The notes under the pieces are model-generated. The model was given only the letters and a program-made list of their open reading frames with translations. It had not been told where the DNA came from and made no database searches. A program made the translations under genes and the position numbers. A stretch of DNA of 64,000 nucleotides from Bugula neritina (lineage: Eukaryota > Bryozoa > Gymnolaemata > Cheilostomatida > Bugulidae). Each line of letters opens with the position of its first letter. Position 1 is the first letter of the stretch. The stretch lies in assembly GCA_964035545.1 (NCBI GenBank), contig OZ037766.1:662501-726500 (forward strand), written 5' to 3'. This document shows positions 2,120-40,914 of this stretch, in pieces.

Positions 2120-3266
2120 CTATAGTAAACCATTAGCTGGCTGATGGCAACACAAGAAATGATTGTCACAATATGAATCATACACTAAAATACCTCGAGT
2201 AGTTGATAACTTTACTTCCTGTTGAAAATCCTGCATATAATTGATCATGTCGTTATGTTTAGCCTTCTCAGCAATGTCCTTCATTAGCTCCCCGGCAGTA
2301 GTCTTTATGTCCAGAATGACTAGACATTGCAGAGGTTCCAGCACATTCATCACACTGGACAACAGACCACAGTTACCATGGCGAACCAGCAGATGCATCG
2401 CGTTTTCCCCGTCAGCATTCTTTCTTATTAGAACCTTATGCATACTGTCAGGGTGAAGCGATCTGATGAAGAGCTGCACAATACCCACGTGACCTTGACA
2501 TATAGCCTGATGAACAGCTGTGTTCTGGCTCTTGTCCATGGCAGCTAGCAAGGAGTACCGCTCACTCTCTGGTACACTTTCAACTAGAACCTCAACCACA
2601 TCAATGAGCCCTCGCAAAGTGGCTTTCATTAGGACTGTGTGTCTCTGGTTGTCTTCCAACATCAACAGCTGAAAGAAGTTACGTCTTCTCACTTTGTTAC
2701 AGAATAAATCAAAGGTTGTCGCAGCTGCTGGGTTGCTTTGCGCAAGTACGTGAAACACAGTCATGCCATGGTTGTTGTGTATCTTTAGTAGGTTGTATAA
2801 AGCACTGACTGACACTGTGCTGACTATGCTACTCAGAATATCTGTGTGACCTCCTTTTCCAACAATTTGGTGTAGCATGGTATCACCTTTGTTGTTCTGC
2901 ATCTCTAGCAATCTAAGGAAGTCACTTTTCCACAAGTACGATATCATCAACTCCACTAAATCTGCACTTCCTTTAGCGACTGCCTTGTGTGCTGGAGTTA
3001 CTCTCTCTCTAGACTCTGTTGACAGGAGCTGATAGAATTGAGTAGCAGAAAGGTAGCTACCAATGCATAGCATGTGCTTTACTGAAGCTTTTGAGGCTAT
3101 TTTGTGGGCTATGTTCCAGCACAGAAAGCCTGCTAACTTTTGGAATACTGCTGAGCTTCTCCTCAAACTCCTGCAGTCTCTCTTGAGTTATCATTCTAGA
3201 AAGTTCACTGCACTCCCTGTTGACCTCATCTTCTGTTAGCTGAGGTGAACTAAACAGAATTCCCAT
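2120..3266 (-). pseudogene. Ankyrin-repeat protein, frame broken near N-terminus
   Basis: From 3187 down to 2120 the minus strand is open for about 350 codons. It encodes six to seven degenerate ankyrin units with a period near 40 residues, longer than the usual 33; typical starts are KGDTMLHQIV, QNTAVHQAIC and GENAMHLLV, and units often end LL..(Q/H)NN. A second frame starts with ATG at 3266 (MGILFSSPQLTEDEVNRE) and overlaps to 3057. It looks like a proper N-terminus, rich in acidic residues. Joining the two needs a +1 shift between 3187 and about 3080, and no credible intron fits there. The locus is therefore a recent pseudogene, an assembly error, or a gene starting at an internal ATG near 3073. 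A TTTCACAG acceptor-like site just before 3266 could mark an upstream exon. Ankyrin repeats bind proteins; no specific role can be given. Confidence 0.6.
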
Positions 3267-15414: not shown

Positions 15415-18400
15415 TTACAGTTTGTACTTTACAATGTATTCTGGGTAAGCTGATGCATCATGGTATACAACGTACTTAGTTGGGCTTGACACATTATCAA
15501 CTACCGAGTCATATTGTTCAGTCTCAGAGCCAGGTTTATAAGGTGCAGTTTTCAGGGATTTATTTCCTTGACAATAATCTCCTGTAACCACTCTAACCAT
15601 TATCATGTGTTTCTCTCCAGCAGCATTCACTGGCGAGTTCCACCCATCAGAGTATTCAGATGTAGTCGAGAAGTAACAGCCAGGACCCAGTAAATTTCCA
15701 CCTACAGTAGTAGTTCACAGACTACTCACTTTCAAATAGAAACCAGTACTCAGTTTATTTAAAAGCTCACGCCAGTTTATAGTCACCATCCCTGTGATAA
15801 AACCCTTAATAGAAAGTCTAAGGACTTATTCAGATGGGGCACAGGAGAAATATGACTGCATGCTCTTTTTTAACATCACCAATGGCCTTTGTCTGGGCTC
15901 GAACCCATGACCTTCTTACTAGGCAAACCCTCTAACCCCTTCAAGCAACAGCTAGCGGCTAATAAATCACTTTTTGCAACTCAAAATGCAGTTTGCATAC
16001 TCGAAGTAGTTGTATGACTAGGTTCTGTAAAATAAAGTCTCCCATTTAAATAAATACAAACTTTCATAACATTGAGGTTTGAGACTAAGGATAATGCAGA
16101 TAATTCTAGAAAAAAATCCTCACCAATTTTTCCTGAAAGCCCCCTGTCAAACTTCCCGTGAGTAATTTTCTGTATATTCTCTTCAGCCGTAGCGTGCCAG
16201 AGGGGAGTTGTCTCCACTTGGTCCTCTCTTCTGCCTAATCTCTGAGCCACAAATGCCCGGCTGCTGTCATACAGGAAATACGACTTAGGATTTTGCACTC
16301 GTCGAACCTGCAAAGACATTATTTAGCTGTTACTTAGCTGTACGTTTTTTAAAAGATTTATTATTAAGATTTCTTGCATATCTTTGTTGTTTCTGCCATT
16401 GATAATTATTATATATAACCAGCATTATATAGTATATTATAGTACAGTATTGTAAAGTATACTATAATATAGAATAAGATATATGTCAACAGAGTAAGAT
16501 ATGTGTCAACAAACTAAGATATGTGTCAGCATACCTAGATATGTGTCAGCTGAAAGTGCTGTACTTACCGCCAAAACAGTGACAGCACCAGCTGGTTTGC
16601 CAATTGTTTTCAAAAAGCTGGAAGAAACATTTTTCCATTCTAATGTATGCCTGGAGATCCCAAACTCCCTGTATATGTTTAATGGCTTCTCCCAGGTTTC
16701 TGGTACACCTGTGAAATGATATTTAATATGTATATGTATAATATGTATATGTATAATATGTATATGTATAATATATATACGTACAATATGTATATGTATA
16801 ATATGTATATGTATAATATGTATATGTATAATGACACTGATAACATTTAGTTCCTAAGTTTAAATTATGATATATACTATATTACATTATAATATATCAT
16901 AATATTGACTACAATTTAGGTAAAATTACATATATTTATAATGCGAAACAATCCATATTTAGTTAAAATAACACCACTCTATCTAATTTAATAATAAAAG
17001 ACTCACTTCTAACAAACTTTCCTTCTCCATCTATTGGCTGTTTAGCATCACTTCCCTTAGTAGTCGGCAAAGCTTTGATCTCCAAGTCCAGTGCTTTCTC
17101 AAAACCCTAATTTTAATTTAGTTTAAAATATATTATATAATGCATATATTATCTCTTAATACATATTTTATGTTGTTATATATATATAATACGTATCAAT
17201 TCAGAGTTAATCTGATTAATATGACTCACCTGTAGAGTCACAGAATCTCTATCATAAACAATCATAATGATTCTCTCAACTGTCGTATCTTCATTATCTT
17301 TAGCAAACTTAGCTGCAGCTCTAACAAAACTCTTGGCAACCACATCGGGAGGGAATCTCAACAGCCCCGTCCCAATAGCAGGGAATGCGATGGATCTCGC
17401 GCTATTGTCTTTGGTCCATAATAAACATTTGCTGATCAGCTTCTCTAAAACCTTTCAAGGAGGAAGACTTACAAATAATTAATAATGAAATTGTCAATTC
17501 AATACATTTTTGCAAAAATATTTGCTTCTTCTGTGTTTAGTCTTATTGAACATAAGTAATATTTTCAAATATGAATTTTACAATTATATCACAAAATCAT
17601 TAATACAAAGTAACATACTAATAAGTTTAACCTATTTATTTTGAATAACTTGAAGTTATTTCATTAATTTAAACCTAAAATCGGAAATAAGAATTTTCAC
17701 ATCATATGATACAAATTTTCATGAGGTAAAAACTATTACAGATGCGTCATGTGATGTATCATGTAATTAAATTTCGGTCTCTAATTATATTACGTTTTTT
17801 TTGTGATATTTGCAAACCAAAATTTACTAAATAATAAGAAAAAAACATAGGGTATTAAGCAAAATTAAAAATAAACTTGATTATTTAGTTGTATTTGTGG
17901 ATATTTTGTTAGTTTTTGGCAAGAAACTATGTAGATGTACATTAGCGGCTAAACTGTGAAAAGATAGCTAAAAATGAAGATTCCGAGTGTGTACTAAATT
18001 ACGTGAAATGACCCATATATGAGCAATTCAAGTGTATACCGCTAAAGTGAAACTTTACTATTGAAACTTAATTCAATTGTAAACAGTATCGTGATGATAT
18101 TTTAAATATAATTAAATTAAATAGAAACTGAAAGAATTATTAACCAAAATTTAAATATAAAATAATATTTCAGGCAAGAAATAAAGTAACACAACACCTT
18201 ATCTGATGACTGAGTATCCCAGGCAGGACAGTTTACATGGAGCACGTCAGCACAGTTCAATCTGTATCCATTAGTCATTACGATATCTCCGAGAGGAAGG
18301 GGTTTGACGGCATCACACTCCTTTTGTAAGCCTGGCCCGGCAGCATTCAACAAGGCAGCAGCAACTTTTCCCCATGACAAAGTCATGTGACTAGCAGTAG

Positions 18401-18873
18401 AGTTTACTATGATGTCCACCTGTAAGTGTGTTTATATATTATAGTAACTTGTGGTGACTTAAAATGATTGACAAACTTTGAAGCAGCTTAAGTAATAAAG
18501 TAAGTCTAACAATTATATACTTGGATGCCTCTTTTCCAAAACAAAGTAATAATATATTACATTTCATAAATTATTCATTTGCTTTCTATATATTTCATAA
18601 ATAACAAAACTTGAGTTTTTATGTATTCAATTATAAATTTCAACAACTACATATTATGTTATTAGTACATTTAAACAATATAAATGTACACACTCTGAAA
18701 GTTACATATTATTAGTATAAGTTAACTGAACAGTATATTATCACTTAAAAACTACTAAGTGCAACCTTAGCTGTAACCAAGTCTCCTTTGTATATCTCCA
18801 GTTTAACTCCATTCTCAAGAGAATAGCCCGTAGAATTCTTCTCTAGATCTTCTAATTTTATATCGTCTTCTTG
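15415..18873 (-). CDS. Macrodomain + PARP catalytic domain protein (PARP14/15-like), 5' end missing
   Basis: Minus-strand exons 18873-18766, 18419-18198, 17451-17230, 17106-17007, 16708-16569, 16307-16124, 15701-15415; frames join cleanly to give 420 residues. Residues ~30-184 form a macrodomain: VDIIVNST (ADP-ribose loop), SWGKVAAALL, then SIAFPAIGTGLLRFP. After a linker comes an ADP-ribosyltransferase fold: TWEKP, VRRVQNPKSYFLY, PLWHAT (catalytic His ~302), GPGCYFSTTSEYS (catalytic Tyr ~335) and TKYVVYHDASAYPEY. The usual third triad position (Glu of PARP1) is Lys here, so poly-chain synthesis is not expected; mono-ADP-ribosylation or loss of activity is. This order is that of the PARP14/15 group, which acts on proteins in cytoplasm and nucleus, often in immune responses. 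The first visible exon starts in phase 0 with no Met, so upstream exons exist but I could not find them before the LINE remnant. Confidence 0.92.
15830..15960 (-). mobile_element. tRNA-derived SINE remnant
   Basis: On the minus strand the segment reads like the tRNA head of a SINE: GGTTAGAGGGTTTGCCTAGT (tRNA D-arm-like), AGAAGGTCATGG, then GGGTTCGAGCCC, a good Pol III B box. It lies in the last intron of the macrodomain-PARP gene. The A box is degenerate and I cannot define the tail or the target duplication, so this is a remnant. Confidence 0.6.
16726..16832. repeat. 15-bp AT minisatellite
   Basis: About seven copies of AATATGTATATGTAT. It lies in a PARP intron immediately upstream (in transcript sense) of the exon starting at 16708. 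Confidence 0.85.
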
Positions 18874-22031: not shown

Positions 22032-22219
22032 TGTTATGTTTATAGAATTGTATACTAGAGTTATGTCCCCTATTGTAGTTCGTATTTTGAAATTATCATC
22101 GTTTGTGTATGACGTCATTATGGGCAGTCGCCATTACTACTCTATCGGAATATTAATAGCATGTTTAACTGAATTTACTAAATATCAATAAAAGTTATAA
22201 AACTAGATTGAACACAACA
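22032..22219 (+). repeat. 5' LTR, 188 bp
   Basis: Identical by inspection to the copy at 26615-26802. Contains a CRE-like TGACGTCA at about 22108 and an AATAAA near 22188 that can serve as polyadenylation signal in the 3' copy. Confidence 0.97.
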
Positions 22220-22220
22220 T

Positions 22221-22233
22221 CTGGCGACGAGGA
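22221..22233 (+). other. Primer-binding site (tRNA-Ser)
   Basis: CTGGCGACGAGGAT begins two bases after the LTR end; TGGCGACGAGGAT matches the complement of the conserved tRNA-Ser(GCU) 3' end including CCA. It primes minus-strand DNA synthesis. Confidence 0.85.
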
Positions 22234-22251
22234 TTGGTTGTGATACTGAAT

Positions 22252-25200
22252 ATGGCTTCAAATATTGGTTCAGTTGGCGAGTTTGATGTCAGTAAACCCA
22301 AAGATTGGCCTACATGGAAACTGAGATTCAAGGCATGGCTGGCTGTCAACAAGATTGATAATGACGATAAAATTAATGCTCTGTTGGCTGTAGCAGGTGG
22401 TGACTTGGTAGACCTTCTGGTGAGTTTATGTCATCCTGCAGATGTTACTACTAAAGACTTTGATGTATTAATGAAATTGATCGACGATCATTATGGAGCA
22501 GGCAGAAATGAAATTGCTGAAAGCTACATGTTTGACTGCAGATCGCAAAATGACACTGAGTCGGTAGCAGATTATGTGGTAGCTCTAAGAAAGCTATCTG
22601 TGCATTGTAACTTTGGAAGCCAGTGGGAACAAAGAATGCGTAATAGACTTGTGTCTGGTGTTAAGAATGATAAAATAAGAACTAGATTGTTATCTGAGGG
22701 CGCTAAATTAACATGGGAGAGAGCAGTAGAAATTGCAATCACAGCTGATGTACAAAATAATTACACTGACATGAGTAGAGCAGCAAACGTTGGCAATGGT
22801 GGTATGAGCGTACAGAGGATTGGCAATGACCGTAACAGGGGCAATGTCATGACAAGGTCAAGGCCAAATTTCAAGTGTTTTAGGTGTTTGGGCACCAATC
22901 ATCAGTCACATCAATGTAAGTTCAAAGACTCTAATTGCCATCATTGCAATATGAAGGGGCATATTAAAAGAGCTTGTAGGCAATTACAAAAGGTGCAGGG
23001 AGTAGAAGAAGATCGCCAACAGCTGATGCCAACACCACAAAGCCAAAGCAGGGCGCCTAGTGCTAGCGGATATCCTTCCACACTTGATCAATATTACGCT
23101 AACCAGAACAGTAGAGACTCTGAGCAGCTTAACTCTCAATACTTTTCATCAAATCCAAATAATGACTGCCTATCAGTACGATGTGTTTCAGGACCGCACA
23201 ATCAACAGATTACGGTGAATGTTGACATTGAGGGCGTGACAATGGCCATGGAAGTTGATACTGGTTCCTGCATTACGTTAATTACTAGTGCAGACTATGA
23301 TAGATATTTTTCCAGAATACCTTTAAAACCTTGTGGTCTTACATTTAGGAGCGCGTCTGGTGACAGCGTCGCGATTTTGGGAAAATTTGAGGTACGCGCA
23401 CAATATGGCGACCAGGTACATAGGCTATGTTTGCGAGTAGCGCGCGGTCACTCTAGGTTGTTAGGTAGAGATTGGTTAAGTGTGATTCGTTTAAAGTGGG
23501 CTGAAATCGGAGCCCAACTACATGGTAACAAAATGGTCAATGGTATTAATTTTGACAGGATTCGGGCCATTAAGCAATTAAAGCAAAAGCACACTGAAGT
23601 GTTCAAGAAAGAGCTAGGCACCCTGAAAGGTATACATGCAAGGCTCAGGCTGAAAGAAGGGACCATCCCTAAGACCACTAAGCCATATAGAGTCCCATTA
23701 GCGATGAGGACCAAGGTTGAAAGTGAGTATGAGAGGCTAGAATCACTAGGTATCCTTGAAAAGGTAAGTGCATCTGAGTGGTCAACAGGTGTAGTGGCAG
23801 TACCCAAACCTGATGGCTCAGTAAGGATATGTGGTAACTACAAAACCACGGTAAACCCAGCATTAATGCCTGTAGCACCTCCTCAAATAAATGTTGACGG
23901 CATTCTGGCAAACCTGAATGTAGATGGTAAGTCGAAATATTTTACCACACTAGATTTGGCGCAGGCCTACAACCAGATGATTGTCAGTAAGGAATCCAGA
24001 CCACTTTTGGCTCTAGCTACGCACAAGGGTTTGTATGCCTACACCAGATTAGCTTTTGGGATCAGTGTGGCACCAGCCTTGTGGCAAAATGCTATGGAAC
24101 AAGTTCTGATGGGTATTGAGAGAGTACAGGTATACTATGATGACATCTTAATAGCTGGAAGAACAGAGGAGGAGCATGTCAAACTTCTAGATCAGGTAAT
24201 GACTAGATTGGAGGAGTATGGCCTGCGACTGAATGAGCAGAAATGTATGTTCTTTAGAGAGTCAGTAGAGTACCTAGGTATGGTCATTGATCAGAATGGA
24301 ATCGCACCGATCCCCAGTAAGATAGAGAAAGTCATAGGCACTCCAAAGCCTAAAGATGTAACACAATTGAGATCTTATGTGAGTATGCTTAGCTACTACC
24401 GTAGATATCTAAAAAATCTGGCACAAGAAATAGCCCCACTGACCAACATGCTTGCAGGTAAGAAAACACAGCTAGATTGGAGTAAAGAGGCTGAGGAGGC
24501 TTTCGCAAGATCTAAAAGCATGCTAAAGAGCTCCGGACTTCTCATTCACTTTGACCCTAAGCTGAAGACCAGGGTAACCTGTGATGCCTCAAGAGATGGC
24601 ATAGCAGCAATATTGTCCCACATTGGAGAGGACGGGCAAGATCGACCAGTGCAATTTTCTTCAAGAGCTCTAACACCGACGGAGAGACTCTACCCACAAC
24701 TAGAGAGAGAAGCTCTAGCAATTGTTTATGGGTTAGAAAAGTTCTACTACTATATCTATGGGAGACGCTTTACCCTAGTGACTGATAACCAGCCACTAAC
24801 ATGGATTTTCCATCCTAACAAGAGTCTACCTATAATGACAGCGGAGAAGATCCAAAGATGGGCCCTATATGTAAGTCAGTTTGACTATGAAATTGAGTTC
24901 AAGCGAGGCCAAGACAACAATGCTGATTACTTCTCAAGGATGCCGGTGGACCCAGCGCCCGTGGATAATGTAAACATTTCAGAGGTAGGGTATGTGTTTA
25001 GCGTGACTGAAGAGGTGTTGCCAGTCACAGCAGAGGTCATTGCAAAGTACACTTTGAGTGACCCTACATTGCTTGGTGTAATGAAATATTCTAGATTTGG
25101 ATGGCCGAAGCACTTGAAAGGAGATGAGGAATCCCTTAGACCATACTATGCTAGAAGAGATGAGATTGGAGTTGAAAGAGGTTGCATCCTGATGGGGTTG

Positions 25201-26406
25201 CGCCTAGTTATACCTGAGCAACTACGCAAGCAAATTTTGGTGGAGATTCACACAGGTCATCAAGGGATAGTCAAGTCTAAGGCTATCGCAAGAAGCTACG
25301 TATGGTGGCCGGGACTGGATAAGGACATCGAGGAAGTTTGTAAAACATGTGAAGCATGTCAGAGAGACAAACCCAACCCCCCAATAGCAGGAACGCACCC
25401 TTGGATCCCTGCTCAAACACCTTGGGAGAGGATTCATGTAGATTACGCTGGACCAGTGGAAGGACACATGTTTTTGATTGTGGTAGACGCATATGCCAAA
25501 TGGCCAGAAATTCTTATGACATCTACATCGACAACATCGGTGACATGCAACGCGTTAAGGGGGCTGTTTGCGAGACATGGCTTGCCAAATGTTTTGGTAT
25601 CAGACAATGGACCATGTTTCACATCAGCAGACTTTAAGGAGTTCACTCAAAGTTATGGGATAATCCATAAGTTCTCCCCGCCCTATCACCCCGCCACCAA
25701 TGGCCAGGCAGAGCGCTTTGTACGCTCATTTAAGGAAGGTATGAAGAAAGGAAGGGGCGCAATACAAGTAAAACTCGACAAATGGCTACTGGCATATCGA
25801 ACTGCTCCTCATAGTGTGACAGGCATTTCACCAGCTAGCAGATTCCTGGGACGGACACTAAAAACAAGGCTGGATTTGCTGTTTCCTAGTCAAAACGCTG
25901 AAAGGTCTAGATTTACTGAGTTGAAAACTAGGCAGTTTGAGGTAGGTGATTTAGTGTGGGCAAGGGATTATATGTCCTCTGACTTCTGGAGAAAAGGTAA
26001 GGTAGTTGAGGTAACGGGACCGCTAACATACGTAGTACAAGTTCAAGGGAAAGGTGAGTGGAGAAGGCATATTGACCAACTGCGTCTAAGAGTGGAGAGT
26101 CGTGACTCAGTGTTAAACGGTCAAGGCACAGGTATGGGTAGGTGGCCAACACAAAATGTAACACCCTATACCAAGATCTACCCAAATCAGGAAAGTAATA
26201 ATGACCCTGATGAACTCTCGAGTGACCACGCAGGCTCGGCTAGACATCAGCCATTTGCAGAGGGGGGCGATAACACTTTGGGTAATGGAAACGACCCGGT
26301 TGTGCCTCACGCGTCGTCGGCATCGAGCGCAGCACTGTCACCAGACGCGATTCCAGTCCGCCGGTCCTCACGGATCAAGAAAGCACCTGTTAGATTGAAT
26401 TTGTAA
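22252..26406 (+). CDS. Gag-pol polyprotein of the LTR retrotransposon, intact, 1384 aa
   Basis: Single open frame; I start it at the first ATG (22252, MASNIGSVGEF), because the open frame upstream has no ATG. Domains in order: Gag to residue ~200; two CX2CX4HX4C zinc knuckles (~208-245, CFRCLGTNHQSHQC and CHHCNMKGHIKRAC) that bind RNA; aspartic protease with DTG at ~337; reverse transcriptase with YYDDILI at ~627; RNase H starting at TCDAS (~776); integrase with an HHCC zinc finger (H..H near 998-1003, CKTCEACQ near 1028) and a D,D-35-E core (DYAG ~1063, SDNG ~1118, QAERF ~1153). Gag and Pol share one frame with no frameshift or stop between them, as in several Mag-type elements. All catalytic residues I can see are present. 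Confidence 0.97.
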   Translation: MASNIGSVGEFDVSKPKDWPTWKLRFKAWLAVNKIDNDDKINALLAVAGGDLVDLLVSLCHPADVTTKDFDVLMKLIDDHYGAGRNEIAESYMFDCRSQNDTESVADYVVALRKLSVHCNFGSQWEQRMRNRLVSGVKNDKIRTRLLSEGAKLTWERAVEIAITADVQNNYTDMSRAANVGNGGMSVQRIGNDRNRGNVMTRSRPNFKCFRCLGTNHQSHQCKFKDSNCHHCNMKGHIKRACRQLQKVQGVEEDRQQLMPTPQSQSRAPSASGYPSTLDQYYANQNSRDSEQLNSQYFSSNPNNDCLSVRCVSGPHNQQITVNVDIEGVTMAMEVDTGSCITLITSADYDRYFSRIPLKPCGLTFRSASGDSVAILGKFEVRAQYGDQVHRLCLRVARGHSRLLGRDWLSVIRLKWAEIGAQLHGNKMVNGINFDRIRAIKQLKQKHTEVFKKELGTLKGIHARLRLKEGTIPKTTKPYRVPLAMRTKVESEYERLESLGILEKVSASEWSTGVVAVPKPDGSVRICGNYKTTVNPALMPVAPPQINVDGILANLNVDGKSKYFTTLDLAQAYNQMIVSKESRPLLALATHKGLYAYTRLAFGISVAPALWQNAMEQVLMGIERVQVYYDDILIAGRTEEEHVKLLDQVMTRLEEYGLRLNEQKCMFFRESVEYLGMVIDQNGIAPIPSKIEKVIGTPKPKDVTQLRSYVSMLSYYRRYLKNLAQEIAPLTNMLAGKKTQLDWSKEAEEAFARSKSMLKSSGLLIHFDPKLKTRVTCDASRDGIAAILSHIGEDGQDRPVQFSSRALTPTERLYPQLEREALAIVYGLEKFYYYIYGRRFTLVTDNQPLTWIFHPNKSLPIMTAEKIQRWALYVSQFDYEIEFKRGQDNNADYFSRMPVDPAPVDNVNISEVGYVFSVTEEVLPVTAEVIAKYTLSDPTLLGVMKYSRFGWPKHLKGDEESLRPYYARRDEIGVERGCILMGLRLVIPEQLRKQILVEIHTGHQGIVKSKAIARSYVWWPGLDKDIEEVCKTCEACQRDKPNPPIAGTHPWIPAQTPWERIHVDYAGPVEGHMFLIVVDAYAKWPEILMTSTSTTSVTCNALRGLFARHGLPNVLVSDNGPCFTSADFKEFTQSYGIIHKFSPPYHPATNGQAERFVRSFKEGMKKGRGAIQVKLDKWLLAYRTAPHSVTGISPASRFLGRTLKTRLDLLFPSQNAERSRFTELKTRQFEVGDLVWARDYMSSDFWRKGKVVEVTGPLTYVVQVQGKGEWRRHIDQLRLRVESRDSVLNGQGTGMGRWPTQNVTPYTKIYPNQESNNDPDELSSDHAGSARHQPFAEGGDNTLGNGNDPVVPHASSASSAALSPDAIPVRRSSRIKKAPVRLNL

Positions 26407-28052: not shown

Positions 28053-29110
28053 ATTGTATTCCAGTGATAATGTTCCACTCCCTGTAATTATTGTATGCTG
28101 AAGAGAGTGTTTATCAAATAACACGTTTCAATAACTCAGTGGTATCAGCATGTAATTGCCAGGTTTTAGCTTTGTATTGTCTACACCAACGTGTCATTGT
28201 TTTCTTACACAATACCAAATCATTTCTTGGTTTGTTTACCAAAGTGTACTAATAAACTAGTCCTTAGAATTTATTACTTATTAGTTTTAAAGTTGTTTGA
28301 AATAGAATTAATAAATAATACTTTATAGATGAAGCTGAAAATACAAAGCAGAAAATATTCAAATGAGAAATCCACTTTGCTAAACAAACCAACAATTATT
28401 ACACTTATTAGTGCAAGTTAGGTAATATTATTTTAGTACAAATATGTTATAAGCTACAAGCAGTTACACATCTGATTATAAATGGAACATCTAATTTAAA
28501 AATATATTTGTTAGTTTCAAAAAGAAATATGAAATAGATCCTTAAAACTGCTTAAAGAAATGATATAAATCATTGTTTTTTAATTAATTTATTGTATTCA
28601 ATATTTAGGTGCAATTGAATATTTTTTAAGCACAATTGAATTGTTAATTTGCTTTTTGTTGCAGTATGAGGAATTGCATACTCTCTTCTTTGCAGTCCTT
28701 ACAAGCGCACCCCCCTTTCTCTCTATACACTTATTTTATCTGGCATACCCCCTTTTTCTTTTCTGCACTTCTACATATTCCTGCAATAAATATTTCAATA
28801 ATATTCAAATAAATTGCACATAAAATATATATTGTACCAAAATAAGTAAATATCGTCTAACTGGGAAGGATCCAAGTGGGAAACATCTAAGTGGGAAATT
28901 TAGTCTATCGTCTAACTGGGAAGCGTCTATCTGGGATGACACCACCAAAGTCATATAAGAGCTAAAGTGACACCAACGCAGCATGTAGCTAAACTGACAA
29001 GTGATTCAAGGTGCTTGTTATTTACAAAATCATATTATTATAAATATATAGGTAGGGTTCCTTACCTGGTTAATTGCAGGGTCTAACTAGTGCAGGTAAT
29101 AGTTATCAAA
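28053..29110. other. Spacer upstream of prohormone gene 1
   Basis: AT-rich. At 28857-28935 a short motif, TCTAACTGGGAAG / ATCTAAGTGGGAAA, is repeated four times. A second TATA-like CATATAAGAGC occurs at 28951. No exon seen. Confidence 0.4.
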
Positions 29111-29113
29111 CTG

Positions 29114-29120
29114 TATATAA
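29114..29120 (+). promoter_or_regulatory. TATA box of prohormone gene 1
   Basis: TATATAA followed about 30 nt later by a short non-coding exon that ends at CAATCAG|GTAAGC (29176). The paralogous gene has the same arrangement (TATATAA at 36628, exon end GACAG|GTAAGG at 36745), which supports both calls. Confidence 0.6.
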
Positions 29121-29546
29121 ATGTTACATAACCAGTCCACCAGTAAGTGGAGCTTCAGAGTTCAATAAACAATCAGGTAAGCAACACTGGACGTTTGTTT
29201 TGACTTTTTTCTCATTTCAAGTAACACTTTGTAGAATATATCTCACCATATTTGTTTATAAGTTGTTTAGATATCACAAATAATTAGAAACTTAGTTAAT
29301 GAAATACTCCTGTGCTAATTTGTGTCATGACTTAATGTGCTGGCGTTTTGTTAATAACACTCACTAAACTTCGTATGTAAATGAATTGACTGACAAAACT
29401 TTCAGCTTTGCCTTTAAACTTTTCAATTTCTGCTTTTCACAAAATGCTATAGATAAAAAATGTATTACTCATTCAACTCTAAAAAAGAGATATAAACATA
29501 ATATTTATGTTATTATTGACATGAGTAAGATTACTTGATGTTACAG

Positions 29547-30188
29547 AATGACAGGCACCCTGATCTGTACGCTGCTTTTAGCGCTGCTAGTAGCTCTAGA
29601 AGCACGTCCTGCACCCGCCCTGCAAAATTGTGATCTACACGAACACCGAGATATTGACTCAGAACTGTACGAACTCCAAAGAGCTATTGCAGCCAAGAAT
29701 TCTCGTAAACCTATCAGTGCAGATGCATTGAAGAAGTTACACAGAATGAAACGTGGTGTCTCTCTTGGTAAGTTTTATATGATATGCCAGCAGAGTATGT
29801 AAATGTGTGCATATATGTATATTTTACAACCGTGAGTATAAGTATAAGAATAAATGTATATGTATAATGTAAGTGTAGATACAAGTGTAGTGATACAGTG
29901 AAAGGAGTGTTTAGTTTATAGATGTTGACAGTCAGAATTAGTGCGCTGCTTAATATAATATCATCTTTGTAATCACTGCTTTTAAAAAAGTTCGATGTTT
30001 GGTTGGTTTCAGCTGGTCTTGACAATATTGGAATGGTCGCCTACTACTTGGAGAGAATCAGACAGCGGCACAAAAATGCCCCAAATACTACCCTCCCCCC
30101 TACCCGTCCCCCTCCTGCCCACATTGCTTCTACAGATATGGACTTGCTGTTAGCATTGCTGGACGAGTCGGCACCTTCTCAATCGTAG
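29547..30188 (+). CDS. Secreted prohormone 1, GVSLAGLDN peptide precursor, 131 aa
   Basis: Coding exons 29548-29767 and 30013-30188; phase 1 GT-AG intron. A non-coding exon ends at 29176 and the coding exon opens with A|ATG. The precursor has a signal peptide (MTGTLICTLLLALLVALEA|RPAPA), a propeptide with one Cys, and a KR site at HRMKR. The product begins GVSLAGLDNIGMVAYYLERI and continues RQRHK, a Pro/Thr linker (PPTRPPPAHI) and an acidic/Leu end (DMDLLLALLDE). No Gly-basic amidation signal. The intron splits the peptide after GVSL. I do not recognise the family. The start V-S..L..N(I)G......(L)ER(I) recalls parathyroid-hormone peptides; the spacing S...(L)E.IR.R recalls egg-laying-hormone/CRF peptides. 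Both families act on class B1 GPCRs, but neither match is proof. Close paralogue 8 kb downstream on the same strand. Confidence 0.8.
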
Positions 30189-31304
30189 GATGTACCGGAG
30201 CATGCCCTCCTCCGCTTGATAGTGAGTCTTTTCACTTCTCAGTAAAAGTAATGCTTTAAGGGTCCAGCTGACTAAAACGATGCGTAACTGTTTTATATAA
30301 TATTTCGACTTTTTGTGTGAAAATACAATTTTGAGTAAATAACCTGCCATATTAAACTTTAAACGAAAGGTTTACAAATGCTCAGCCATTAAAACATTTA
30401 ACTTGACTTAGTTATATACTGAAATATTATCAAACATTATACTAATACCAGCTGCTTAGTCATATCTAAAGAAACTTATAAATAATTTTTAGTTTATTTT
30501 AAAAGAGGCCTATTAATATTTAAAATAAGTAGAACAACGTTTTCTATTATTTATGTAAATAATATATGGAACAATGTTATTAATGATTTAATTTATTTTG
30601 TAGACTACCAAACACGAAGCAAATATAATCTTTCGATTATACTTACAGAAGTTTCCAACTTACCAGCTTTATTTCTCTCTCTAAATCTCTTGGTATATAA
30701 CTAAATGGTTTATTATTTACTTGTATCACTTGTGTTGTGACTCATGCCAGTGTTTACTGCCAACTAATGCTAATAAATACAGTATATACAGTTTAATAAA
30801 AAGTTTAAGTATATATTTATGCACTTACTTTTTTATATTGACACAGTTGCAAGGTTTGGAATAAGTTTAAACGTACTGCCAGATAAGACAAGGTTTAACT
30901 ATACAGTTTACTTTATCATAGAGAGTTGTTATTACGTAACATGTGGCAGCAGCTTTCAATGCAGATCATATCAATAAATATACAAATGGGAGTTGCTTCC
31001 CCAAACAAAGAGTTACTAGGTTTATAAATACAGAGTTATCTTCCCATCAGTTATCAAAGAATATTAGTTTTCTATTTGCCGTACATTTAGCAGGGTATCA
31101 TGGTATACAACTTTTTCATTCTCATCACTTCTCTGTCACTTTAAGTTTTATTATTAACTGATAAGTAGAAACTCGCACAAGTAAGTATTGCAGGAAACAG
31201 AAACTTTAAAAATAACATAATGTTGAAAAATATTGATACAAAATTATCATAGAAAATACTCTTTCCCCATCTTATTTTTAAACTCAATTATTTTTTAAAC
31301 AATA
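30189..31304. other. 3' UTR and spacer
   Basis: A GTGAGT donor-like site lies 33 nt after the stop codon (30221), so a 3' UTR intron is possible. An AATAAA occurs near 30770. No other gene recognised. Confidence 0.4.
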
Positions 31305-31545
31305 CAGTATAGCCTCTGCTTCAACTGTACAGCATAGCCTGTGTTTCAACTATACAGCACAGCCTGTGCTTCAACTGTACAGTATAGCCTCTGCTTCAAC
31401 TGTACAGCATAGCCTGTGTTTTAACTCTACAGCATAGCCTGTGCTTCAACTATACAGCATAGCCTGTGCTTCAACTATACAGCATAGCCTGTGCTTCAAC
31501 TGTACAGCATAGCCTGTGCTTCAACTGTACAGCATAGCCTGGACT
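31305..31545. repeat. 25-bp minisatellite
   Basis: Nine to ten copies of a 25-bp unit, TGTACAGCATAGCCTGTG followed by CTTCAAC, between the two prohormone genes. Confidence 0.95.
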
Positions 31546-34500
31546 TTTTTTCAATCATGAACTGTGTTATAGAAAGGGGATATATTTGCTGGCTACATTC
31601 CAAATGATGTAGTTTGTACAAAGACAGTTAATCACTCTTTGAACAAACTGGACATGGTTAGACCAGTATAATAGTGAGAGATTCTGTTAGTCTGTTGATA
31701 CTCTAGCTGTGCACAGCTACAAGTGCTAATTATTAATGTTTGCTGTTGCTGTTTGTTATTGTTGATTATAGTGTGAAATACGCTGCTTTATTTAGCCCTA
31801 ATATACATATAATAATAATAATAACAATATCTGTGACAATAATTATATAGCTAAAGTTTGTAATGAGTTGACAAGTAACAAAATTAGATCAAAATGATGT
31901 GAGAACATTCAAACTGATAAAGTGTTCAAAACACCCTCATAGCTCAACTATGTGTGGTCTTAAAATCTATTTTTAGTTGTTGGGCAGTGCTGAGGGTTGT
32001 GTAGTAATTTGATATCACCGTTGTCACCTCCCAGCTAGCAAAATCATTTGAAGTTTAGATTAGCCCAAATCTATAGGCATCAAAGTTCTGTGGAATAGAT
32101 TTTCCCACTGCACGCTTGCCATGTGAGTGAAACTTGCTGGTCATAATATGAATTTGAAGCTGTGAGGGTGTGTGGTTGATATGACGTATACAACAGACGT
32201 TCACATATCTTGTAGTTTATATATTTAGGATTTTATTTATTTATAACAGTGGGATGTTCATAACAATGCAGATGAATATTAAACTTGAAGTACTCTTACT
32301 GTAACATGATACGGGTGGGTGGGAAGTTGAGTCATGTCATCGCGGTAGAGTAGAACATAAAGTTACAGCTGTTACTGCTATAAGACTTACACTTCAAAGT
32401 GTAGGTGGTATGGGTTTGTATTATGAGCCATTGTCATGTATTGTCACATGCATTGTATATGTATATATATATATATATAATTTATGTTGGAGCTATTAGG
32501 GGCGTTATATGAGAGAGGGACAACTCTGTTATTTCTCTATGAATAAACAATGATTTATCATATGTTTATGACTAAATTCAAATTGGCCAACAAAAATATT
32601 TAAATTACTAATTACTTTTGTTTTTTAATAAAATTAGAGATAAATTACAAATCTGCATGAAACACATAAGTTAAAGCAATCAGTGAGTCAATTTGTTTAG
32701 CTGCTACACAAAAACTGAAAAATTATGTCATACATGTTTGTTTGCATGAGTATAAATTGTATAGCAAAACCTTAAAATGTTCTTTTAGAGACCACACCAC
32801 TACATGTATATACTGACTTGTGCCTTTTACAGAGTGCTGTTTAAACTATATATAAAGCAGGTTTGCATCACTTAAATATCATGTTTTCCAGAATGCAATT
32901 GTTGGGTGCTGAAGTACTATTGTGAGATGTTATACAAAATACTTTAATATTATAAACTATATCTTACCATAACTAAAGTTTGTTGAAAGGTAAATAGAAG
33001 ATTATGAAATACGAAAAAGCTGCATAATATGAATTATGTTACAGAAATATACAGTACAATGAAAGGTCCTCAACAGTCTGAAAATATGCAATGTGCCTGT
33101 ACACCACATGCATGTGTAGCATCTCAGCATTGATAAACTTCAAAAAGAGTGGATTCAATGGGGGCATAAGATATGTATTAAAAACTTGAAATTTAATTTC
33201 AAACCATAGCCTATGTAGCTGAAATTGAAATTATGTTTTAAGTATATATAAGCATATTTAATAATCAGCCGTAGAAAGCTCAGGGGTTAAACTTTGATGG
33301 CAGGCTTTTAAGAAAAGTTGTAATTTATAAGCACAAAAATATTTCTCCACCACTGAATAGAATTATTATTTGATATAGATAATAATTTGCAAAAATAATC
33401 ACGCATACAAAACACAGCTCTATTTCTAATATATTGCAAAACCATTGCTATTGCAACACTCACTTGACTGCCATATTTCCTGAAAAAACCATTTTGCTGA
33501 CCTTAAAATTTTGCTAAACATTTGAAAAGTTGTGCACTTGACTTGAAGTGATTCATTGCAAAACAAAACAACAATTTTATTGTGTATTTCATATAAAAAT
33601 CCCTCAATATGTTTCAATACATTCTCACATGTGAAGCAGGGTTTTCTATTTTATATGATTCATAAGAATTGTATAAACAATACTTTGACATCAACAGCAT
33701 TCATTATTAAATATTATGTATAATATTATAATATAATAATAAAGTATAAATAATATATTTATTGCAATCATAGGTCTAAAAAAAAGTTAAAAAGCTCAAA
33801 TAAATGTGAAACATATTTATATATTTCATATTATTTGCAGTGTACCATCTCAAAGAAAGCATAATTTATAAATATTTTTTACAACAGTCATGTTTGTTGG
33901 AGGATATATTGACATCATGCATTGGCGGCTGATTTAGTATAGTGATAAATTGAACATTTCTGATGGCCATAAAAATAAAATATTGTTCCTAAAAACTCAT
34001 GCTTACAATCTATTATTCAATTAATATTAATAATAATGTTTGTACAAGTTATTGGCATACTGACTCATAAACATGATCATGAAGACCGAATGCAGGTCAC
34101 TTGCACAGTTTTCCAGTGAACTTAAACTGTACATAAATCACACCATTTCGCATCAACTTTGGCAGCTATACTATAATATTGCTAGAGAAAATTGGCAACT
34201 CTCCAATTCCACTTAACATACTTTTCAATACTCCTACAAGTATCCATAATTTCAGAATTAGCAAAAGATATAGATTAGATGTTATTTTCTTTACATTTAA
34301 AGTAATTGGCAACACCACAATACAATAGTTCATCAATTCAAACATATCTGTAGAGTATACTTCATATATTCACTTTGCTTATATCAGTAACTCATCCTAG
34401 CTATATGAGTTGAATTTATTCAATATGATCTCACTTAAACTAGAAATGACTCAACACTATACATTTCAATATTAGTCATTGAGTTCACGAGGCGTGTCTT

Positions 34501-36620
34501 GTGAATAAACTTCATATCTCTTTCATGTTCATTAGCGTAACGTGAAACGTAATTTGTTAATAGGAAGGAAATTGGCATTAACCTCAAAATGCTCATTAGT
34601 CATTTTCAGTATTACATACGAGCCAGTGTTAATCAGAAATTTTTAATAGTGAAAAAATATTTTTTTTTATCTCATCCATTATTTCCTTATATATTGAGAT
34701 TCCGAAACTACACATCTCTGTACTGACATATTTTGGTTGTGACAATTTTATTTTAAAATATTTTAGTGCTGCATGAGTCTAACTTGCAGTTTTATTTTGA
34801 AATATTGTATTAAAAATATTTTAAAATAAAAGCTTTATGCAGACTCTAATAATAAAGGTAGAGTTTGGAGTATTTAAAATGCAGACATTAAGTAAAGAAA
34901 TGTAATAAATGGAGTCGGTGTGTTCCTTTACCTAGCCTGTGCTAAATGCACATTAAGCCAGCAGAATAATACTATACTTTTCTTTTTATTTACTGACTTT
35001 TATTAAAAAGAACCAATATAAGTCAATTTTTGTTTTTAGTAAACACAACATTTCAGTTGTCTTAATTAATTAATTAAACACTTAGTTCCGTCATGTCTTT
35101 GTATAATCATATGGTTGTGGCACAAATAGAATGTGGTTCTATATTTGATGGATTATAATATTTCTGCAGATAAAGGATGTAAATAATATTAGATATGTTG
35201 CAATGTCATATTTTATGGTTATGAATGTATATTTTGAATTGCTCTATGCATGAGCTGCATATGTGTGTATAATTAGTTCCATAAGGTTTTACTTGATGTC
35301 CCTTCATAAGCAATTCAAGATATGTGTATTCTCCACAATTGCAGCTTGTTCAAGGTACATTGAAGGTTATTGGGAAATCTGTTTACTACAGCCAGCACTA
35401 TAAAAGCTCAACATTTTGTAATTCATTCCCCCCTCCCCCACCTTCACCCCCTCCCCCACCTTTACCTCTCCCTCCTCTTTCAACCTCTCCCCCACCTTCT
35501 CCTGACCTTTGCCCCCCACCTCCATTTCACTAATAAAGTATGCTTTAGAAATCTCTGTACTCTTATATATTTTAAGTTTTATATTTTTTAAAAAAGAGCA
35601 CTGGTAAATTGTTTTCTGTTGCTAATGTATATATAATACTTGTAAAACTGGCATTTGAATTTCTTTTTACTGTATTTTTGCTTCGTATAGAGTCATTTTA
35701 AAGTAAATTAAAAGTATTCATCTTGTTAGGAGAAGCAAAATAAATTTTCTGCAATATAAGAAAGCACTCATACAAATATGGAAAGCTTCATATCGTATGT
35801 AAGTTTAGTGCGAAATGAATTATAGCATTTCTCATTAAAGAACAATTATCAGTTGAAATATTATAGAGAGTATTGAAATAATTTATAAAGCCTTGGTTGG
35901 TTTTCTATAGCCAGGAGTTAATGTGGGGAGCAACAATTAGGAATGCTACTTCAAATTAAGCTTTACAATAAAATAAAAGCCTCAGAGCAATGCAATAAGT
36001 ACAAGCCTGCAGCGCTACGTAGTAAAATGGGAGCTGAATACAGTGGATAACTTAAAGTGAGCATGTATTGGCACATGCATGTCTTTCTATGAAAATGTTT
36101 GATTTGCCCTAACTAAAGATTAATATTATATTTAGTTCAATGCTATTAACTATGTGGAAGCGGAGCTAGACTTAATAATGGACATATTTTCAGGTTAACT
36201 AGTTTTAGCAATCTGGAAATAAAAAACTTGACATCTCCAAACTTACTCTAATACAGTATAGCCTACTTGTATATAATTTTTGTGGATATTATCATTGTGA
36301 AAATGTTATAGGCTGGAGTTTTAATTTATGTTTTAATTAATAAAGATTTGTCCAGCTGATAGTGATGAGTTGTAAATTCTATTTTTAGAATATTATCATA
36401 TCATAACAGAAAGAATAACAGATGAAGTGTGTGGCCTGTGTAGTGTGGAACACATGTTCTATTGTGAATGGAAAATTATCCAGTATAATATGTTATTATT
36501 AATCTAATAACCTAATGCAGTAGCACTATACAATGCTATGTGCAGTGACAGGTTATGCAAGGTGCTTGCTACTAGCATCTGCTGTGAAGCTCCACCTATA
36601 AACATGTCAAAACACGAGTT
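31546..36620. other. 5 kb spacer between the prohormone genes
   Basis: AT-rich unique DNA with no exon that I can support. A C/T-rich tract at 35421-35525 (CCCCCTCCCCCACC-type) is a polypyrimidine run that keeps two short frames open. A (TA) patch lies at 32458-32478. No tRNA or other RNA gene recognised. Confidence 0.45.
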
Positions 36621-36627
36621 GCTGAGA

Positions 36628-36634
36628 TATATAA
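36628..36634 (+). promoter_or_regulatory. TATA box of prohormone gene 2
   Basis: TATATAA about 115 nt before the non-coding exon end at 36745 (GACAG|GTAAGG). Transcription start is expected near 36660. Confidence 0.6.
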
Positions 36635-37420
36635 GGACTGCTTCTGTATCCACCTTTCATTCCAACAGCTACTGCTGCCCCTAGCTGTCAACTCACAACA
36701 TTTAAGGCTATAAATTCCAACGGAAAGTTTATTGCATTCAGACAGGTAAGGGCTGACAGCTGACGTTAGCTTCTTTTAACTTTTCTTATAAAAAAAATTC
36801 AGATAACAAATATTTTGCTTTGGAATGTGTGGCACAGTTTTGGTGTATAATAATGCGTTTAATTATTGTTACAGGCATTATTTATAAAACTTTTATTTAA
36901 AAGCTATCTATAAATTCCATGCAATTATATATTACTTGTATTGTACCTGTTGATATTAATTAGTTAGATCTCTGCTGCTGTAATAATTATCCAGTATGAA
37001 ATAACAATGGCTCGGGGTGGTTTAATTATCATAATGTATATATATAGTATTATATAGTATATAGTACATTAGTTTTACTATCAACTCTCAGAGTACACGG
37101 TATAGAGTATATTAGTTCTACTATCGGCTGGAATATAGTAAGATATCCGCTGGAGTTATGCTGGTGTATTTCTCATCAATCCAGAATCTTGTTTGTCTGT
37201 GAGCTTTGTATATAAAGTAAAGGGAAATGTTATGTCTTCACCAGCAGTTTAACATAACAAATAGTTGTTAGATAATGGTTATGCTATTTAGGGCTAAATT
37301 AAGTTAGTTTCTTTGCAAGGGGCATATTTTATAGCGAAGGTTAACCAACTTAAGGTTCACAAATTTTTTAGTAATAATAAAATTTCTGCTGCTTTGTTTT
37401 AGCCTTGGTTCTTGTTTTAG

Positions 37421-38274
37421 AATGAGGGTGGAACTGTTTCAAGCCTGCCTGGCATTACTGATGTTCATATCACTAGAGGCTAAACCTCTCCGAAGATTAT
37501 CTACACAATCCGAGGGGGTTGGAACACCTCCCATAGTACAATTGTTTCATAGACTGAGAGTTAGAGAGGAGTTAAGTTTGCGGAGCAGAGTTGATGCGCC
37601 CTCTACCAGAAGTATAATGAGAGACTCAGCTAGAGTAAAGAGAGGAGTTAGTTTAAGTAAGTTTAACTCTGATTGTTACTCAAAACTCACAATGCAGTCA
37701 GTAAAGCTACACAATGGTGTGACCCAGTCACTGCTAAGACTTGCCATCAGGAAATTATGCTATACAATCCAGTGTTTACTCTTGTAGTAGCTATTGCCAA
37801 TTGTTAGTATTTTTCCTCAATTATTATTTTTTGGCTGGCTTTAAGCCTACTTGAAGGTTTATTGTCAAAATTGCTAATATTTTGATCACCAAACTATAAT
37901 GTTTAGTAGTATGTGAATTTATACTAAATAATAGTTGTTTGTATTTGTAGCCAGATTCCAAGTAGCAGTTCCATGTCCAAATAAATTATTAAATATTATA
38001 ACTTAACATAACAACATATTTACAAGTTGAATAGCACATTCAGTTTATATAACACATGAAAGTCAGTTTTTTATTGAGGCAAAATTTTATTTCAAACGGA
38101 ATTTTGCTTTCAGTGGGTCTTGACAATGTAGACTCCGCTACATCAGCCTTAGAGCAGATCCGAAACAGGCATCGTCACGGGCACGGGGCCACTCCAGCCA
38201 CCCGACCTCCCCCAGCTGTCATCTCTGAGTCTGAGCTAGATCTGCTGCTACATCTGCTGGAGAGCAAGAAGTAA
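37421..38274 (+). CDS. Secreted prohormone 2, GVSLMGLDN peptide precursor, 131 aa
   Basis: Coding exons 37422-37656 and 38114-38274. The phase 1 intron is at the same codon as in prohormone 1, and the coding exon again opens with A|ATG. The length is also exactly 131 residues. Signal peptide MRVELFQACLALLMFISLEA|KPL, sharing LEA(R/K)P with its paralogue at the predicted cleavage point; a longer basic propeptide; KR site at ARVKR; then GVSLMGLDNVDSATSALEQI, RNRHRHGHG, TRPPPAVI and a C-terminal ELDLLLHLLESKK. Residues conserved between the paralogues are KRGVSL-GLDN, LE-IR-RH, TRPPPA-I and DLLL-LL, whereas signal and propeptide are largely diverged. This is the pattern of a processed hormone under constraint. 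Retention of the intron would instead give a protein of another sequence ending at 37787, which I regard as unspliced reading. Family not recognised; class B1 GPCR ligand is a hypothesis. Confidence 0.8.
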
Positions 38275-40914
38275 CCTCCCCATTGATCTCTAAGGTGAGA
38301 TAGTCTATATATTATATGTACTCTCTCATTGCACTTCATTGATCTCTAAGACTTTCTAAAGATTGAAATTATATGGTAGAAGTTTTATAGCAGCTAAAAG
38401 AAATAGCTTTATGTAGCAAAAACAGCTTTTAATGAATTTTATAACAAAACCTAAAAATTAGAACAGCTCAAATAAATAGTCAATACATAAAAATTTGGTT
38501 TTTCTTTTTAATATAATATTTAAAACAAAAAGCTATAACCTAGGTAACAGTTTCTCCCTGAAGGTTCTTTTTCTATTTTCAGTAAACTTTCATATTATAT
38601 CTGTTATTTTAAAAATATTTCATTGAATCTCAAACGCCATTACTCTCAAAGTCAATATAAGTAGCGATGAAAAGATTACAAGAAACTCAGTTACAGAGTT
38701 AACTTCTAGCTATGAGTCAACACCCTGTTGAGTCTGAGATAGGGTTAATTTGATGAGGCATTTACTCCATACAATAGAGTTAGCTGAACCGTAAAGACTT
38801 AATCCATTCTTTCCTAAGAAAAGAAGGAAGTACCAAATTTCTAATATCCTTCTACCCGTCTCTTAGATTTCCCGATAAGACCCCAAACTCAATCAGCATC
38901 ATAGTAGCTTCCACATGTCAACAACAACTCAGGGCAGACCCAAAGCACGTAAACTATCCTAGTAATTGCGTTGTTCTTGGCAAGCAGCTGGTCTAGGCTT
39001 AAATAATTTAGAGTAATAAAATGTGCATATTGTAAGGCAGGGTGTACCTTGCACTCCTCATTTCTCTGCTCATTGTTTATTCCCAACTTTATAAACAGCC
39101 TGCAAATGATGTAAGAAAACATTCCTAAATTCCTCTCCTCACCCAGCCTCTAATTTTGTTAACAAAACTCAGCTTTACTGATTTTGTCCAGGATAAAAAA
39201 TTTGCCCTTTAGATTCTTAGTATTTTATGACATATGTAAGATTAATTACGCCCAATATTTGTTTAAAATCATTCTTTTTGTTTACATTCCTTGGAAATTA
39301 CATAACATTGTCTTCTTCAAATTGCAGTCACGTCCATCCTGTTAGTTTATTGTCATTAACAGCTTTGATATCAGTTACATAATCACCTCCAGTACAGAAC
39401 AATTAATAATCACTTAATCAAACACTGTTTGACCTTGAGGCAAAGGTCATGTCTCAACAGTTTTACTCAGTTTATTAACTTGAGTAAATTTAAGCTACAA
39501 ATTAGCACACTAAGTTTATGAGCAAACTATCTTCATAGTCTTATTGGCTAGAGTTTGTTTTTCGGTATCATTTTTGCTTTTGAGTCATTTAAAAATTGAT
39601 ATGTTTTTCTATAATAGTTTTTAAATCAACAAATTAATTTAAAAGTATGAATAATGCAGGGTAACGCCCTGAAGATGTTAGACTTATTATTTGACACAAG
39701 TTCTTGACCTTTCTTGACCTTTTGCTGTTGATAGTCAGCTAGCTAATTACTGAGTGTAATTAAATAATTGTTCCAATGAACTGGTAAACAATAACAGTCA
39801 TCTGTCTCCATGAACTACCAGCTGCTCTGTATAGCTTAGTTTTAATATCTTTGAAGATGACTGAAAAATATCCAATAAAAATCATAAAATAAATTAAAGT
39901 TTTGTTAATTTAAAATCAACAGCACAAGATTTTGAGTCAAAGAGAGGAAATTTATACAGTACTACAAATAAATTGATAGTAATTCTGAAAACAGGCCTAT
40001 ATACAAAATTAGCATTTTATCCAGATGGAGTGTCTGTGCATGTGTGTATATCTTTACTTGTACTACATTAATCTATTACCATAATATAATATAATACAAT
40101 AATATATATGTTATTTTTCTTTGTAGAAGCTAAGCTGTGATATAAACTAGAATGCTCAAAGTGAAACCCCCTCCCAAACAGAGTTCCCATTTCTGTCCAT
40201 CCTAATAATTATGTATAACATGTATATATCAACTTGTAACAACACATGTACATATTTATATTTATATACTTTATTAAATGTCATGTTTTTACTATTATAA
40301 TATATTTTATTTTCTTTAAATAATGTGCATAGTTTGTAAAAATTTATATAATTCATTAAAAGTAATTATGAGAATTAAAAAAAAATTTATATATCCTGGT
40401 AATCTTTTACAAAAGTTCATAAATTTGTGTTATTTATTTAATTATATACCCATGGTTATTTATTTGTGAAACTTTATTTCAGTTTTCTCTTTAGTTTTCA
40501 CAACTAGAATTTGTATCTGTTGTTATCTTCTCCCATCGAATTCTATTAATATAAATACAATGCAGCTATCTGTGCTTTATTTAGCTCTGATATCTACAGA
40601 TTATCAATTCATAAATAGAGTTTATTTTTGATTAAAGTACACGCCTGAAAACTACGTATATAACTCACGTCATCATTATCAGAAGTAAGAAATTAATCTT
40701 TCAAATTTAACTGAAGAAATGCTGCAAATTATTGTAATGTTTAATTCTCTAATAAGAATTTCTGCTTTTAAATATTATATATAAATATAAAGTAAGAAAA
40801 TTTACATATAAAGATTACAAGGGGATGTATAGGATATAATATTATGCCCTGAGCATCACTTGCAGTATTAGTTACTACTATTCTTCATGTGAGAGCTCAT
40901 TGTATATATCTACT
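38275..40914. other. Spacer, no gene seen
   Basis: A GTGAGA donor-like site occurs 21 nt after the stop of prohormone 2 (38295), echoing prohormone 1. The remainder is AT-rich with no supportable exon. Confidence 0.4.

Follow-up and report, generated by a model that had tools for sequence, protein, structure and literature searches.

A tandem pair of apparently undescribed secreted-precursor genes, most likely encoding peptide hormones, in the bryozoan Bugula neritina

Do two neighboring genes of the cheilostome bryozoan Bugula neritina encode a peptide hormone, and if so, of which family? The question is raised by a 64,000-nucleotide stretch of contig OZ037766.1 (GenBank assembly GCA_964035545.1, positions 662,501 to 726,500 of the forward strand; here, the window), in which a first-pass annotation had described a tandem pair of prohormone genes. 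We rebuilt the models of the two genes directly from the DNA, and all coordinates are positions in the window. The genes are very probably real, and the pair appears to be an undescribed one encoding secreted precursors, most likely of peptide hormones. More specifically, we favor tandem cheilostome paralogues whose released peptide, beginning GVSL, probably serves as an extracellular signal. The features of the two genes are as follows (a slash marks a splice junction).

29114-29120, plus strand: TATATAA, candidate TATA box of gene 1
29145-29176, plus strand: candidate noncoding first exon of gene 1; start approximate, donor CAG/GTAAGC; predicted from donor and acceptor only
29547-29767, plus strand: gene 1 coding exon; A/ATG (ATG at 29548), putative signal peptide, propeptide, RMKR, GVSL, and base 1 of codon 5
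30013-30188, plus strand: gene 1 last coding exon; remaining peptide (GLDN...LERIRQRH...TRPPPAHI...DLLLALL) and stop
36628-36634, plus strand: TATATAA, candidate TATA box of gene 2
36660-36745, plus strand: candidate noncoding first exon of gene 2; start approximate, donor CAG/GTAAGG; predicted from donor and acceptor only
37421-37656, plus strand: gene 2 coding exon; A/ATG (ATG at 37422), putative signal peptide, propeptide, RVKR, GVSL, and base 1 of codon 5
38114-38274, plus strand: gene 2 last coding exon; remaining peptide (GLDN...LEQIRNRH...TRPPPAVI...DLLLHLL) and stop

Both genes lie on the same strand and have two coding exons, with the coding part opening A/ATG directly 3' of a splice acceptor. 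Each has 131 codons plus a stop, and a phase 1 intron splits codon 5 after Lys-Arg (GVSL/A in gene 1 and GVSL/M in gene 2). Moving the gene 2 donor by one base either way breaks the frame. The re-derived models therefore confirm the first-pass description of the architecture, and all of the motifs that it quoted (LEA(R/K)P, KRGVSL-GLDN, LE-IR-RH, TRPPPA-I, and DLLL-LL) were found in both genes. Two of its points carry less weight. The totals of exactly 131 codons are correct, but they look coincidental because the leader and mature lengths differ (69 plus 62 residues in gene 1 and 74 plus 57 in gene 2). Similarly, TATATAA is present ahead of both genes, but it occurs 11 times on the plus strand of 28800-38600 and is therefore weak evidence for a common promoter when taken alone. 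The first-exon donors (CAG/GTAAG) are 56 (gene 1) and 111 (gene 2) bases past the end of TATATAA.

Are these frames coding? We searched approximately 5.8 billion public proteins, with a reach limited to proteins sharing short exact words, and found one match at E 10 or better for each gene. P0001 is identical to gene 2 at 67 of 78 residues (86%), and P0002 is identical to gene 1 at 60 of 73 (82%), both without insertions or deletions. These proteins are open frames covering the second exon only, plus a few residues beyond the donor seen in the window, and those residues (SKF and CKF, respectively) are compatible with a GTAAGT donor. This pattern suggests that P0001 and P0002 are orthologous to gene 2 and gene 1, respectively. 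They keep the frame through the second exons, so these exons are coding in another organism too, which is why we consider both genes very probably real. In the intron tail beside the gene 2 ATG, P0001 matches at 9 of 34 ungapped positions, including the last five before the ATG.

Next to the coding evidence stands the relationship between the genes. After Lys-Arg, 29 of 57 aligned positions are identical, with gaps in 5 of 62 alignment columns, and the mature-peptide alignment scores 137 against a maximum of 49 among 2000 shuffles. This supports the earlier claim of tandem duplication. The claimed divergence of the propeptides was also borne out, since those of the paralogues align no better than expected by chance (1551 of 2000 shuffles reach the score). 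Over the 57 mature codons, the Nei-Gojobori proportion of nonsynonymous differences (pN) was 0.39 and that of synonymous differences (pS) was 0.78, a level at which silent changes are saturated, and the pN-pS difference was below 0 in all 2000 bootstraps. Replacement changes between the paralogues are thus rarer than silent ones, and the near-neutral ratio that would have spoken against the first-pass annotation was not seen. In the mature part, codon positions 1, 2, and 3 are identical at 29, 39, and 19 of 57 codons, so that the third is the least kept. At the DNA level, the alignment score was reached by 224 of 300 shuffles for intron 1, 262 for intron 2, 102 for the 3' flank, 173 for exon 2, 2 for exon 3, none for the promoter region, and 10 for the 1.8 kb further upstream. 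Introns and the 3' flank are thus at shuffle level, whereas similarity persists in the peptide and in some of the promoter, which indicates that the duplication is old. Together, these sequence comparisons identify the two genes as tandem paralogues and show purifying selection, in the comparison between them, on the peptide that they are expected to release.

Conservation had been described as restricted to the part after Lys-Arg. This holds between the paralogues, but the propeptides are identical to those of the relatives at 45 of 54 (83%) and 40 of 50 (80%) residues, so constraint need not be confined to that part. Searches of the genome (216 Mb in 295 contigs) with each protein returned, besides the gene itself, only the last exon of the other gene (E 7.1e-7 and 1.0e-7); distant copies could escape such searches because they start from shared words. 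A local peptide profile run on the six frames of the window found the two last exons, with noise from E 1.8 beyond them.

The two genes also share an upstream block, found by repeat search and local alignment:

28995-29020, plus strand: upstream block, gene 1 copy (TGACAAGTGATTCAAGGTGCTTGTTA); score reached by none of 300 shuffles
36546-36571, plus strand: upstream block, gene 2 copy (TGACAGGTTATGCAAGGTGCTTGCTA)

This 26-base block was absent from the earlier description and is new to this analysis. Its copies are identical at 22 of 26 bases, the window holds two matches where none is expected, and they sit 94 (gene 1) and 57 (gene 2) positions ahead of TATATAA. The core, CAAG-GTG-CTTG, is an interrupted palindrome. 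The block was kept while the introns lost all similarity, which suggests a shared control element. A 14-base core, CAAGGTGCTTGYTA, occurs nine times in the genome, two of these being the promoters described here, and a reversed-pattern control occurs nowhere. With up to two mismatches, a 17-base version occurs 208 times compared with 70 for its control, although control counts may be depleted because the control pattern contains CG. By eye, no obvious hormone precursor was seen at the other seven CAAGGTGCTTGYTA places among open frames of at least 70 residues within about 6.5 kb downstream. The block does not single out any clear group of further hormone genes, and we do not claim a regulon. 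One of the other copies (L065) lies upstream of frames that resemble intermediate-filament exons by eye.

What might these precursors release? The N terminus of each has a hydrophobic core that may be a signal peptide, with a best 10-residue mean hydropathy of 3.1 and 2.8, and the putative leader cleavage sequences, LEA-RP and LEA-KP, are retained in the relatives. The first-pass annotation had proposed cleavage at a dibasic Lys-Arg. That site is present, but the common element is the fuller R-x-K-R:

29743-29754, plus strand: R-M-K-R furin-type cleavage site, gene 1; RIKR in P0002
37632-37643, plus strand: R-V-K-R furin-type cleavage site, gene 2; RVKR in P0001

Arg-x-Lys/Arg-Arg is the furin consensus, and the four precursors (both genes, P0001, and P0002) share R-x-K-R but no other basic site. 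It is followed by GVSL in both window genes and P0001 and by GVSI in P0002. Of the other basic pairs, an upstream RR of gene 2 is absent from P0001, and an RK of gene 1 is absent from P0002. The released parts lack cysteine, a Gly-basic amidation signal, and any internal dibasic site, and they end in SQS (gene 1) and SKK (gene 2, which thus ends in KK). Therefore, one long peptide is expected per precursor.

From these features, we infer transcription, secretion, cleavage, shared control, and receptor action along the following lines. The signal peptide would be removed after LEA, and a furin-like enzyme or prohormone convertase would cut after R-x-K-R in the secretory pathway. This would free the C-terminal 62- or 57-residue part, starting GVSL, as a whole. 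The freed peptide would probably form two helices with a proline-rich hinge and would act extracellularly on a cell-surface receptor. The common upstream block suggests that both genes are probably expressed under shared control. In line with the first-pass proposal of a secreted signalling peptide, the layout is prohormone-like. In structure models, the last exon of each gene is predicted to form two helices, with a best predicted local distance difference test score (pLDDT) of 76 and 71.

Several observations weigh against this reading. The heads of intron 2 are also alike between the genes and their relatives (7 of 11 positions for gene 1 and P0002, 4 of 5 for gene 2 and P0001), so that these species may just be near relatives, and in gene 1 the divergence of the intron does not stand clearly apart from that of the exon. 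A protein profile search with the peptide alignment gave 24 candidates, none of them at E 10, and the known relatives cover the second exon only. A KK in gene 1 is retained in P0002, with no counterpart in gene 2, so the gene 1 propeptide might be cut further. Short neuropeptides are usually amidated, unlike the peptide expected here. Finally, the structure models were built on two sequences, and the predicted helices are no more amphipathic than shuffled sequences (their hydrophobic moments are reached in 839 to 1732 of 5000).

Does the peptide belong to a described family? With four query forms, Pfam listed only S1FA and Abi_C at E 10, both below threshold, and NCBIfam listed no match. Among Protein Data Bank sequences, there were two chance matches with the gene 2 peptide and none with a two-gene profile. 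The literal peptide strings were absent from the literature searched, which consisted of openly licensed papers, so description elsewhere is possible. No such peptide is mentioned in the available parts of a B. neritina survey (PMC4990251) or of a survey of nemerteans, brachiopods, and phoronids (PMC8557429). The earlier statement that GVSL(A/M)GLDN has no named family is thus upheld across the family profiles, solved structures, and literature that were searched. The kind of gene, a prohormone, is known; the family seems new and so far confined to bryozoans.

The alternative that survives best is a very divergent class B receptor peptide, of the ELH/DH44/CRF or iPTH/QSGamide type, that has drifted beyond recognition. 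The genome does hold class B receptor hormone-binding exons (four HRM matches above the cutoff). In DH44, ELH, and CRF precursors, a basic site precedes one long helical peptide, as is predicted for this pair. Gene 2 has a short EQIR-R resemblance to ELH-type peptides, its EQIRNRH resembling EQIRERQ of Aplysia ELH (5 of 2000 shuffles). It also resembles human CRH (92 of 2000 shuffles), but through its C-terminal LDLLLHLL. However, twelve such comparisons were made, the lowest count for gene 1 was 105 of 2000 (ELH), and EQIRER is not known to be conserved even among gastropod ELH peptides. No CRF/DH44 (PF00473), ELH (PF02323), or parathyroid hormone (PF01279) match was listed at E 10 by HMMER, which filters out most weak matches. 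Searching the genome with PF02323 gave no match, and control genomes gave none either. A C-terminal amidation signal, which is typical of CRF/DH44 peptides, was found in neither gene. In addition, the proline hinge and second helix predicted here are not known from DH44, ELH, and CRF peptides.

Vertebrate PTH/PTHrP shares with this pair the noncoding first exon predicted here, a basic site, and a nonamidated long peptide starting near SVS. However, the pair matched no peptide-hormone profile, and alignment to PTH 1-34 was at chance (184 of 2000 and 274 of 2000 shuffles). The iPTH/PXXXamide/QSGamide-type precursor described in PMC7224569 has a signal peptide, like the putative one here, as well as Lys-Arg and one mature peptide. 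In iPTH, a GXX amidation/cleavage signal is strictly conserved and followed by a C-terminal extension (PMC7224569), whereas that signal is absent from this pair, whose precursor ends with the peptide. We therefore regard a class B peptide as unlikely.

A secreted protein of the structural, cuticle, or matrix kind, or else a precursor in which the propeptide is the active part, seems to us doubtful to a similar or slightly greater degree. The conservation of the propeptides in the relatives and the retained KK of gene 1 would fit it. However, between the paralogues only the part after Lys-Arg is kept, and no repetitive stretch like those of matrix proteins was seen by eye.

A host-defense pair, in which furin would free a membrane-active, antimicrobial helical peptide, is less probable still. 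Tandem duplication, a furin-type site, and predicted helices are all consistent with it. However, the released parts are near neutral rather than cationic (5 K/R and 6 D/E in one, 6 and 7 in the other; net -1 in both), their amphipathicity is within that of shuffles, and only two genome copies were found rather than an expanded family. Lastly, chance open frames or decaying duplicates are highly improbable: TATATAA is common here and the DNA similarity is modest in the last exons and absent in the second, but the protein-level match, the codon pattern, and the frame-keeping relatives of both second exons contradict them.

Returning to tandem hormone genes, a bolder version is plausible though short of probable. 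It proposes a hormone system specific to the bryozoan lineage. The orphan peptide, nonamidated and of helix-hinge-helix form, would be processed by furin, be encoded in two coregulated tandem copies, and have its own receptor, with nothing comparable among the neuropeptides described from other animals. Bryozoan peptide signalling is little known, and the literature searched held one dedicated precursor survey. Table 2 of that survey (PMC4990251) gives 11 B. neritina precursors: six insulin-like, two pedal/orcokinin- or FDSIG-like, one vasopressin-like, one NPF-like, and one GPB5. They resemble this pair in being secreted precursors from the same bryozoan order, but by eye none of them (Wong et al. 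2016) is like it. Because that transcriptome was mined for known hormone types, the survey was unlikely to catch a family without known relatives. With two paralogues, second-exon relatives, and a putative shared control block, the pair offers a concrete peptide for synthesis and testing, for example, in larval settlement and metamorphosis. It is also a case for the origin of new hormone families within one phylum.

Other hormone genes were located in the same genome with the Table 2 precursors of PMC4990251. Two tandem vasopressin-neurophysin exon sets at C5:7278081-7288553 (L024 to L027) are 80 to 91% identical to the B. neritina sequence, and the vasopressin-type gene therefore looks tandemly duplicated as well. 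Two of these matches contain one and two in-frame TAG codons, which may be intron edges. GPB5 exons are 89 to 91% identical to the B. neritina sequence of that table, and some 6 kb away there is a second GPB5-like exon, 41% identical (C3:265622-272439, L028 to L030), possibly forming a third tandem hormone pair. Judged by the vasopressin-neurophysin and GPB5 identities alone, the genome would be that of a cheilostome close to Bugula and probably not of B. neritina as represented in that table.

The surroundings of the pair in the window are as follows.

2120-3187, minus strand: ankyrin-repeat exon (PF12796, E 7.7e-21)
15981-16322, minus strand: frame like a PARP catalytic domain by eye; Pfam listed nothing at E 0.01
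18117-18431, minus strand: Macro domain exon (PF01661, E 3.1e-12)
22207-26406, plus strand: uninterrupted 1399-residue frame upstream of gene 1, resembling a Ty3/gypsy-type retroelement polyprotein (motifs by eye)
31244-31591, between the two genes: tandem array with a 25-base period

The minus-strand frames in 15981-18431 perhaps belong to one macro-PARP gene.

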